From Methanosarcina thermophila TM-1 (GTDB lineage: Archaea; Halobacteriota; Methanosarcinia; Methanosarcinales; Methanosarcinaceae): DNA of 64,000 bases. The stretch is taken from NCBI RefSeq assembly GCF_000969885.1, contig NZ_CP009501.1, forward strand, positions 2,804,908 to 2,868,907. The letters run 5' to 3'. The position numbers and the translations under genes were made by a program. Of the stretch, positions 31,917 to 42,917 are shown one piece after another. Under the pieces are notes generated by a model. The model had not been told where the DNA came from. It saw only the letters and a list, made by a program, of their open reading frames with translations, and did not search any database. The stretch's first letter is position 1. The number at the start of each line of letters is the position of its first letter.

Positions 31917-33830
31917 TTACAGCAACCTTACAGTTTCAAGATTTGTAAGAGCTCGGGTCTCAATTTTCAGTTTCTTGTAAATTGAGCTTGCCAGGTCAAC
32001 ACAGGCTTTCTCATCTCCATGCTCGGTAAAGACCCTTTCCGGACGGGGCTGCATCTTCTTGATATATTCCATAAGCTGTCTCCTATCGGAGTGACCTGAG
32101 AAACCGTCGACTACATGAACTTCCATGTTCAGCTTAATGATCTCAGTGCTGCCGTTTTTCCCTGCCATAGGGATTTCTTTCCAGCCTTTCTGGATCCTGC
32201 GTCCTATTGTCCCATCCGCCTGATACCCTACGAACACCAGAGAGTTGCGTGAGTCTTCGGCAAAGGCTTTGAAATAGTCCATAACTGGTCCTCCGTTCAT
32301 CATACCTGATGTCGCGAGAATAACACAGGGGTGCGGATTCTCAATTATCTTCTGGCGCGCTTCGTGAGAGTCAACAGGCCTGAAGCACTCAGCCAGGAAT
32401 GGATTCTGACCTTTCTGGAAGATTAGTTTCCTCAGGTCATTGTTCAAGTACTCGGGATGTGTAGCATGAATTGCGGTTGCTTCCCATATCATTCCGTCCA
32501 GATAGACCGGAATATCGGGAATCAGCCCTTTCCTTATAGACTCCTCAAGCACTATCATGACTTCCTGGCTTCGACCGACTGCAAAAGCCGGAATGAGGCA
32601 AATTCCTCCTCTTTCCACGGTATTTTTAACTACCATCTGGAGGTGTCTTTCAGCGTCTTTAAGTGAGGGCTGGAAAGCATTTGCGTTCCCATAAGTAGCT
32701 TCACTGACGACAGTTTCAACTCTTGGGAACTTATTGACAGCAGGATCAAAAAGCCGTGTTTTCTCATATTTGTAGTCTCCAGTAAAGACCACGTTATGGA
32801 GCCCGTCGCCTATATGGAAATGAGAAATTGCCGATCCCAGAATGTGACCTGCATTATGGAAAGTCAGTTTGATATCTGGAGCGATATCTGTTACTTCCTC
32901 ATAATCCAGGGGAATTGTGTGTTTGAGGGTCTTTGCTACCATGCCTGATTCGTAGGGAATCTTCTTCCCTTCTTTTGCTGCCACATCAATGTAGTCGAGC
33001 TGGAGCAGAACCATCAGATCCCTTGTAGGCGGTGTACAGTACACAGGTCCATCATATCCGTACTTGAAAAGCAAGGGAACAAGCCCCTGATGATCCAGGT
33101 GAGCATGTGTAACTACCACCGCATCGATCTGATTTAAGGGAAAAACTTCAGGAACATACAGGTAAGGAGTCATGTTTTCGTCCGAACCTACATTGACACC
33201 ACAATCGATCAAGACTCTGGACTCAGGAGTCGATAACAGGAAACAGCTCCTCCCTACTTCTTTGCACCCCCCAAGCGATGTAATCCTTATCCACTGGTCT
33301 TTTGAAGTACATTCTTTATGGATTTTTCTCCCCACTGCTCTTAGAATTTCTTTTCTTTCCTTCAGGTTGTTCCTCATAAACTCCCTTATATTTTTAACGG
33401 TACGGGATTTGATAGGGGGAGTCCGCGCAACCTTCGGAATCCAGCCGATTTGCTTTGTGATCTCACGGAGAGTGGCTCCATGTTTACCTATCACAAGGCC
33501 CGGCTTCTCAGCTTCAATGATTACTTCTCCAGAGTCAGGATCAAAATAGTAGCTTGTGATTACGGATTCTTTTGGGACAACTTCTTCGATTATAGAAATA
33601 GAGTCCTCAGGAGTAGCAAGTACCCTGGGATCGGGACGCATGGCAATCCGTGTCCTGAGCTCTTTTGCCAGGTTACGAATTATGTTCCCATCGTCTGCGA
33701 ATTTGCGGGGCTCCTCAGTATATAATACAAGCTGAGGTCCCTCAAATTCCACGTCGGTAATTGTAACTCCTTCAGGTAGATTTTTCTCAATTTTCTGTTT
33801 GAGTTCTAATAACACGTCTTCAATAGGCAT
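31917..33830 (-). CDS. Transcription termination factor FttA (aCPSF1)
   Basis: The 637-residue protein has two N-terminal KH domains (about 1-165, with the GKHG loop in VIGKHGATLREI), then a metallo-beta-lactamase domain with THAHLDHQG near residue 240 and a beta-CASP domain with GHSD near the C-terminus. aCPSF1/FttA is known to cleave nascent RNA at U-rich sites and end transcription in archaea. I choose ATG 33830, which follows AGGAAGA; a TTG codon directly precedes it. The proteasome gene lies 110 bases upstream on the same strand. Confidence 0.95.
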   Translation of the reverse strand: MPIEDVLLELKQKIEKNLPEGVTITDVEFEGPQLVLYTEEPRKFADDGNIIRNLAKELRTRIAMRPDPRVLATPEDSISIIEEVVPKESVITSYYFDPDSGEVIIEAEKPGLVIGKHGATLREITKQIGWIPKVARTPPIKSRTVKNIREFMRNNLKERKEILRAVGRKIHKECTSKDQWIRITSLGGCKEVGRSCFLLSTPESRVLIDCGVNVGSDENMTPYLYVPEVFPLNQIDAVVVTHAHLDHQGLVPLLFKYGYDGPVYCTPPTRDLMVLLQLDYIDVAAKEGKKIPYESGMVAKTLKHTIPLDYEEVTDIAPDIKLTFHNAGHILGSAISHFHIGDGLHNVVFTGDYKYEKTRLFDPAVNKFPRVETVVSEATYGNANAFQPSLKDAERHLQMVVKNTVERGGICLIPAFAVGRSQEVMIVLEESIRKGLIPDIPVYLDGMIWEATAIHATHPEYLNNDLRKLIFQKGQNPFLAECFRPVDSHEARQKIIENPHPCVILATSGMMNGGPVMDYFKAFAEDSRNSLVFVGYQADGTIGRRIQKGWKEIPMAGKNGSTEIIKLNMEVHVVDGFSGHSDRRQLMEYIKKMQPRPERVFTEHGDEKACVDLASSIYKKLKIETRALTNLETVRLL

Positions 33831-33943
33831 CAAGAATCTTCCTTTTTGTCAAAAAATGAAAAAATATGTAGGTGTTGAAAAAATAATAGTTTGAAAAAGA
33901 TGTTAGTTTAGTGTCAAAATAAAAAAACCAACAATTTAAGTTA

Positions 33944-39088: not shown

Positions 39089-39126
39089 ATAAAAAAAGAA
39101 GAAAATTCCGTGTCTTTTGACACGGA
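39089..39126 (-). terminator. Terminator of the cdh operon
   Basis: A perfect 8-bp stem TCCGTGTC / GACACGGA with a TTTT loop (39107-39126) lies 28 bases below the cdhE stop. On the minus strand it is followed by ATTTTCTTCTTTTTTT, a strong T-run. Confidence 0.85.
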
Positions 39127-41880: not shown

Positions 41881-42145
41881 GTAAACCTCACCGTTTCCCT
41901 AAGTTTTCCGTTTTTGCGAGTGACTGTATAATAAAGAATGTAACACAGGAGTTATTTCCTTACATTTCCCTGCAGGGATCGTGACATAAATTCCCTATAT
42001 AGCAGGGTTTGCGATGGAAATGGCACCTGCTCCGTTATTATGGATTTGATATTTCTCAGGCTTTAAACAGGCAAAGAATCCTACTTTTTTTCCGGTATGA
42101 TTTTTGCAGTCTAAAGATCCAAAAGAAAGGATAAAGATCCAAAAG

Positions 42146-42171
42146 AAAACTGGGATTAGAATCCCAGTTTT
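42146..42171 (-). terminator. Hairpin over cooC stop codon inside the cdh operon
   Basis: A perfect 12-bp inverted repeat, AAAACTGGGATT / AATCCCAGTTTT, with a 2-base loop spans the cooC stop. The minus strand continues CTTTTGG, a short T-run. Two direct repeats of TAAAGATCCAAAAGAAA (42112-42128, 42132-42148) lie just beyond. The 275-base gap to cdhD (41881-42155) also has CCCTGCAGGG and AT-rich sequence that could be a second promoter. The hairpin is seen; partial termination or processing is inference. Confidence 0.6.
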
Positions 42172-42917
42172 TTTACTATACTTTCAATTTCGACTGCAGC
42201 AATTGAATCATCCGGTATCTTAAAGAGAGGTATGCCCTTTATATCCATTTCCTCGATTTTAGGGTCGAGCGGGATCATACCTATCATATTAAGTTTCAGA
42301 TCCTCTGCCAGTTTGATTAGCTCTTCTCGGTTAGCATCTGTAACCTTGTTTGCAATAACGTGAATTCTTCCAATATTTGAGTCCAGTTCTTCTACAAGCT
42401 CACGAATTCTTTCCGCAGTCCTGAACCCTCTTCTTGAGGCGTCAGTTACGACGATGAGATCATCGATATCCCTGATAATTTTTCGGCTGAAGTGCTCAAG
42501 TCCTGCTTCCGCATCAATGATAACCACATCATAGTTTGTGATCAGTTTATCCATTATGCCTCTTAGCAGATTGTTTACATAGCAGTAACACCCTGAGCCT
42601 TCTGGCCTACCCATAACCAGGAGATCATAACCAGGCATTTCTTCAATGATCTCATAGACCTTGCTCTTAAGTATCGATTCCTTATTCATATCGGGATTGT
42701 CAGGCTTTGGTTTTGTAATTTCAGCCTGTAAATACTCTTTTACCTCCCCGACAGTTTTTACATCCTCACATCCAAGGGTTTCAGGCAGGTTTGTATCTGC
42801 ATCTGCATCTACTGCCAGCAGAAACTTCCCTTTTTTGGAAAGGTAGCGGATCAGAAGAGCCGCTACTGCTGTTTTACCAGTCCCACCTTTTCCCGTTATT
42901 GCAATTACTCTCGTCAC
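42156..42917 (-). CDS. cooC: CooC-type nickel insertion ATPase
   Basis: A 253-residue MinD-like ATPase that loads nickel into CO dehydrogenase or acetyl-CoA synthase. The deviant P-loop is GKGGTGKTA at residues 9-17, and the metal-binding Cys-x-Cys pair is Cys110/Cys112 in GSGCYCYVNN. VIIDAEAGLEHF is the switch region. It sits between cdhC and cdhD, as in other Methanosarcina cdh operons, so maturation and synthesis are linked. Confidence 0.93.
   Translation of the reverse strand: MTRVIAITGKGGTGKTAVAALLIRYLSKKGKFLLAVDADADTNLPETLGCEDVKTVGEVKEYLQAEITKPKPDNPDMNKESILKSKVYEIIEEMPGYDLLVMGRPEGSGCYCYVNNLLRGIMDKLITNYDVVIIDAEAGLEHFSRKIIRDIDDLIVVTDASRRGFRTAERIRELVEELDSNIGRIHVIANKVTDANREELIKLAEDLKLNMIGMIPLDPKIEEMDIKGIPLFKIPDDSIAAVEIESIVKKLGF

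Follow-up and report, generated by a model that had tools for sequence, protein, structure and literature searches.

The window analysed here is a 64,000-nt stretch of the Methanosarcina thermophila TM-1 genome (3,127,379 bases in a single contig), and all positions below are window coordinates. On its minus strand lie six co-oriented genes in the order cdhA, cdhB, cdhC, cooC, cdhD and cdhE, names that we assume to be correct and that were taken from a first-pass annotation of this DNA together with family features. Methanosarcina cleaves acetate by means of this cluster, CODH/ACS being the central enzyme in methane formation from acetate. Consecutive junctions in this cluster measure -16, 20, 62, 275 and 3 nt, so that the cooC-cdhD gap is out of line with all the others and is indeed wide for the operon, as had been remarked in the first pass. 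Within this predicted operon, between cooC and cdhD, an inverted repeat (H1) was located, and the synteny around it is retained in relatives. The features are as follows.

47345-44934, minus strand: cdhA, open reading frame
44949-44419, minus strand: cdhB, open reading frame
44398-42980, minus strand: cdhC, open reading frame
42156-42917, minus strand: cooC (253 aa), open reading frame; its last codons, CTG GGA TTC, are the 5' arm of H1
42146-42171, minus strand: H1, a perfect 12-bp inverted repeat with the cooC stop TAA in its loop and inner stem (sequence, folding, conservation)
42141-42149, minus strand: U-rich tract TTTTCTTTT, overlapping and then trailing the 3' arm of H1 (sequence)
42112-42148, minus strand: lineage-specific 17-nt tandem duplication (42112-42128 and 42132-42148), through which the U-tract occurs twice (sequence, alignment)
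41881-42155, minus strand: cooC-cdhD gap of 275 nt, long across the Methanosarcina clade (gap lengths in relatives)
41927-41935, minus strand: AT-rich TATA-like element TTTATTATA, a weak promoter candidate (gap alignment; low score)
41886-41924, minus strand: conserved leader of cdhD; pairing is possible between its GTCACTCGC (41916-41924) and both the ribosome-binding GGTGAGG (41886-41892) and the start region (alignment, pairing, consensus folding)
41880-40567, minus strand: cdhD, open reading frame
40563-39154, minus strand: cdhE, open reading frame
39107-39126, minus strand: hairpin TCCGTGTC-loop-GACACGGA at the operon end after cdhE, trailed by U-rich sequence; a positive control built like H1 (gene-end search, relatives)

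The cooC-cdhD gap spans 227-350 nt in Methanosarcina (580 nt in locus L100), 182-184 nt in the sister genus g11 and 102 nt in genus g2, and it is mostly 15-55 nt long in other genera. Several of the longer gaps outside Methanosarcina contain a short, ORF-like copy of the CdhD N-terminus of about 64-98 aa with 56-62% identity (5001-5204 in L024, L028 and L031; 4214-4405 in L061), and such copies also occur outside the gap in some Methanosarcina genomes (L146, L147). Searched against the M. thermophila genome, the gap returned only its own locus; next came the palindrome itself (E 4e-4) and short, weak matches. As no real second copy of the gap is present, a dispersed repeat of the REP or MITE type was rejected. 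A known Rfam RNA family was likewise rejected, all 16 matches listed being far below the gathering scores.

The stop-codon hairpin and its conservation

The perfect 12-bp stem with a 2-base loop over the cooC stop, the short T-run behind it and the two 17-base direct repeats, all described in the first-pass annotation, were confirmed from the sequence. The loop of 2 nt is nominal; as RNA, H1 would form 11 bp closed by a 4-nt loop from the stop region, with a folding energy of -14.0 kcal/mol in a 40-nt window at the stop. The T-run reads T4-C-T4, and its first T4 lies within the 3' arm. Spaced 20 nt apart, the direct repeats reach the stem, the second sharing 3 nt with it. The duplication is present in only 2 of 28 aligned Methanosarcina sequences, which places the repeats outside the conserved feature; they are a local duplication and were rejected as functional sites.

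The structure is not a chance occurrence. Perfect stems of at least 11 bp number 10 in 464 kb (the window plus 20 sampled stretches of the genome), and H1 alone among them overlaps a predicted stop codon. Gene ends that fold at the stop as stably as H1 were found in 3 of 358 cases, compared with 0 of 358 shuffled windows. Elsewhere in the window, a minus-strand gene end (31917-33833) carries a very stable hairpin across its stop (-16.8 kcal/mol), behind which lies another hairpin with a U-run.

Relatives were drawn from named contigs, where 80 of 138 loci were retained, and also from 100 family and 30 genus genomes, with a CdhD match in 95 of the 100 and 24 of the 30. They include 36 distinct sequences of the Methanosarcina clade; L017, whose cooC is broken by unknown bases, was dropped from the stem counts, leaving 35. 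Lack of conservation of the stem had been named in the first pass as one of the findings that would refute its reading. The stem proved to be conserved: in 29 of the 35 sequences the stop-spanning fold has a lower energy than shuffled versions of the same tail (p<=0.05), the others being L004, L014, L015, L090, L100 and L136, and in other genera 2 of 44 pass the same test, which is the chance level. In two genomes the stem is weakened in one of two cdh copies (L100 in G085, L136 in G087), and in the 5.75-Mb genome G083 it is weakened in the sequence common to both copies (L090 and L138).

Both arms of the stem were considered column by column. The 28-sequence gap alignment omits L100, L017 and the g2 and g11 rows. 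The neutral simulation further omits L007, L015 and L136, which carry insertions of one base; the stem of L007 is perfect and shows a compensatory change, and those of L015 and L136 are weak. Across the 25 Methanosarcina sequences in the simulation, the six core pairs of H1 are retained in 142 of 150 cells, a level matched by 0 to 2 of 400 neutral tree simulations per setting in six settings. The noncoding columns of the 3' arm take 3.3 parsimony steps each, about the same as the rest of the gap (3.6). On the coding side, Leu251 of CooC is CTG in 35 of 35 sequences, and it is the sole codon column without change among 83 conserved degenerate columns in CooC (mean 6.0), CTG making up 23% of the Leu codons in sampled genes. 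The wobble base of Gly252 is variable and largely tracks its pairing partner. By this codon comparison, the coding arm of H1 is constrained at synonymous sites.

The covariation score of H1 (0.186, compared with 0.152 in shuffles) was reached by 2 of 500 shuffles; of five measures compared with shuffles, two did not stand out. Compensatory or independent double changes are few, and a tree-based independent-pairs test with 6 pairs only had no power (p 1). In windowed consensus folding, H1 (z -10 to -23) far exceeds every other conserved structure of the gap in strength; two further mid-gap hairpins look plausible by eye, but one received weak support and the other none. We conclude that H1 is under selection.

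Gene-end signals around H1

A search for stems with a U-rich tail found them at 16 of 329 gene 3' ends, compared with 0 of 329 shuffles, 1 of 329 mid-gene controls and 1 of 329 upstream controls. The 16, of which 5 overlap the stop codon by coordinates, include H1. A minority of the gene ends in this genome is thus genuinely marked by a hairpin with a U-tract. H1 has the anatomy of that class, namely a G-C containing stem (11-12 bp) directly before a U-rich tract (T4CT4), and a U-run of at least 4 directly follows the stem in 24 of 28 Methanosarcina sequences.

A positive control is offered by the region behind cdhE, where the operon ends. There, a hairpin with a U-rich tail (5 to 11 U of 14) is present in the 16 Methanosarcina-clade rows listed, in most of them as the same hairpin found after cdhE in M. 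thermophila, and comparable hairpins occur in most Methanolobus and Methanococcoides rows. The sequence of this operon-end hairpin is similar between Methanosarcina and Methanococcoides, while other stems substitute for it in many Methanolobus. The U content is mostly 9-11 of 14 at the operon end and has a median of 7 of 13 after H1; a weaker internal U-tract is what would be expected of a leaky terminator. The anatomy, the conservation of the stem and the use of such hairpins at gene ends thus lend support to the earlier description of H1 as terminator-like.

Our best reading is that H1 is a leaky intra-operon terminator or an mRNA 3'-end determinant. That it is a selected RNA element producing a leaky 3' end between cdhABC-cooC and cdhDE is a proposal to which we give about an even chance. 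RNA polymerase that has passed cdhABC-cooC would encounter the hairpin and then the U-rich tract; some transcripts would end there, intrinsically and probably with the aid of FttA/aCPSF1, and the remaining ones would continue across the 275-nt gap into cdhDE. We infer that such partial termination would leave more cdhABC-cooC mRNA than cdhDE mRNA, lowering cdhDE; translation of cdhD would rely on the conserved leader in front of it and not on coupling to cooC. Counting against this proposal are the U-tract behind H1, weaker than the one at the operon end and poor in g11, the small number of compensatory changes and the six of 35 sequences that fail the shuffle test.

The main rival would yield the same unequal mRNA by another mechanism. 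Here the whole operon would be transcribed and cut in the gap by an endonuclease, with H1 shielding the 3' end of cdhABC-cooC from 3'-5' exonucleases. Such processing fits the observation that the stem is better conserved than the U-tract, and fits genus g11 in particular, which has the most stable stem of all but a poor U-tract, GGTTTCAAACAATTTT, behind it. Post-transcriptional regulation of the cdh operon is mentioned in a study of M. acetivorans, in which the half-lives of cdh transcripts are stated to vary with growth condition (PMC5112694). However, no cleavage motif was identified, and the combination of hairpin and U-tract is characteristic of a set of gene ends in this genome that likely includes true transcription ends. 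We consider processing a tentative alternative, appreciably less probable than the leaky 3' end.

Promoter candidates and the cdhD leader

A second promoter in the gap, which the first-pass annotation had suggested, did not find support in the M. thermophila genome. With a promoter matrix built from the regions upstream of 30 tRNA genes of the genome, the best TATA/BRE-like score in the gap was 4.9, versus a median of 8.2 in 119 divergent upstream regions and of 3.6 in 47 intra-operon regions, which puts the gap in the lowest 13% of the former and at the 72nd percentile of the latter. The AT-rich box itself scores 2.2. In this genome, the gap thus contains no BRE/TATA element comparable to those of other promoters, and a second promoter was rejected as the main reading. 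A scan for sigma-70-type promoters returned chance numbers, the method not being applicable to archaea.

These scores bear on the possibility that H1 is a complete boundary, with the cdhABC-cooC transcript ending there and cdhDE transcribed from a promoter of their own at the TTTATTATA box. The long gap with its terminator-like end would suit such an arrangement, as would the position of the box about 25 bases before the conserved leader and the better TATA-like scores in several relatives (9.6-9.7 in L011, L012 and L017; 8.2-8.9 in L005). Against it stand the low scores of the gap and of the box in M. thermophila, and the box is absent in L015, L018, g11 and g2 while the leader persists. The cdh genes of M. 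thermophila are also reportedly cotranscribed, which we counted against a complete boundary. We regard this arrangement as unlikely, and retain a leaky 3' end with read-through into cdhDE as the preferred reading.

The most conserved part of the gap is its last 50 nt before cdhD (0.96 steps per column). In 35 of 36 sequences, the exception being L095, a GTCACTCRY element is able to pair with the GTGAG of the cdhD ribosome-binding site; 33 of these pairings were found by a script, and those of L098 and L141, which the script pattern missed, were read by eye. The pairing often extends to the cdhD start region, and consensus folding gave it modest support (z about -2.5 to -3.2). These data suggest that translation of cdhD is served by a leader of its own, unlike in other genera, where the junction is tightly packed. 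Through this pairing, the leader could mask cdhD translationally. As a genome-wide regulatory box, GTCACTC-N3-AAAACGG was rejected, with 1 exact match and, at up to 2 mismatches, 12 matches versus 31 in the reversed control.

Since the hairpin sits on the cooC stop codon, a terminating ribosome would cover its 5' arm, and the two elements could act together as a two-part switch, that is, translation-coupled attenuation in the acetate-using clade by the stop-codon hairpin and a masked cdhD leader. While a ribosome finishing cooC close behind the polymerase occupied that arm, transcription would continue into cdhDE; under slow translation, H1 would form and cdhDE would be cut off. The leader of the read-through mRNA would have GTCACTCRY paired with the cdhD start and ribosome-binding site, so that this mRNA would need to be unmasked, processed or re-started within the leader. 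We hold this elaboration to be improbable, more so than a complete boundary. Least probable of all, and in our judgement very unlikely, is that the palindrome lacks any function at the RNA level and arose by chance from conserved cooC codons next to a 3' flank that drifts slowly: its 5' arm is coding and hence conserved anyway, and the stem is weak in some species (L014, L090, L136), but the neutral simulation, the codon invariance, the outgroup contrast and the consensus folding all stand against it.

Comparison with known systems and significance

Control after initiation is a feature of this operon in Methanosarcina through the 5' leader of the cdhA transcript; that leader lies before cdhA, whereas H1 lies inside the operon. 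Our literature searches found no paper on the cooC-cdhD junction, though the inverted repeat may have been mentioned in print. Internal operon terminators as such are already known in both archaea and bacteria. In Methanococcus maripaludis, they are reported in 38% of operons, and archaeal termination is described as resting on U-tracts together with aCPSF1/FttA (PMC10450193). Like these internal sites (ioTTS), H1 is a terminator-like element in an intergenic region of a methanogen operon that encodes a protein complex, and lower expression of the downstream genes would be expected. The M. maripaludis sites, however, are defined by U-tracts and aCPSF1, and the words hairpin and stem do not appear in the main text of that report (PMC10450193), whereas the conserved part of the putative cdh terminator is the stop-codon hairpin.

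A structural parallel comes from Haloferax volcanii, in which the hairpin terminator S12, located within a coding region, ended 59% of transcripts and allowed read-through in a reporter (PMC7237163). H1 likewise reaches into a coding region; it belongs to another archaeon and adds a U-tract and the overlap with the stop codon. In the Clostridia ABC transporter operons (PMC9045158) and the Bacillus ars1 operon (PMC4562236), a terminator or hairpin in an internal gap sets the expression ratio by separating a more strongly expressed upstream part from a weaker downstream part, as proposed for cdh, but the polymerase there is bacterial, and the archaeal mechanism need not depend on a hairpin.

In genera g1, g2 and g11, each of the 18 genomes examined has acetate kinase (one of them, G025, is without a CdhD match), as against 0 of 20 others examined, and the long gap with the hairpin was seen in the genera with acetate kinase and not in those 20. 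The split of the operon thus coincides with the acetate-kinase clade; as this is a single clade and hence one event, the relation is a correlation only. If the conserved internal 3'-end signal is true, a single operon could supply its CODH/ACS part (cdhABC with the maturase CooC) and its corrinoid methyl-carrier part (cdhDE) at different levels, and hairpin-type ends would join the U-tract picture of archaeal termination.
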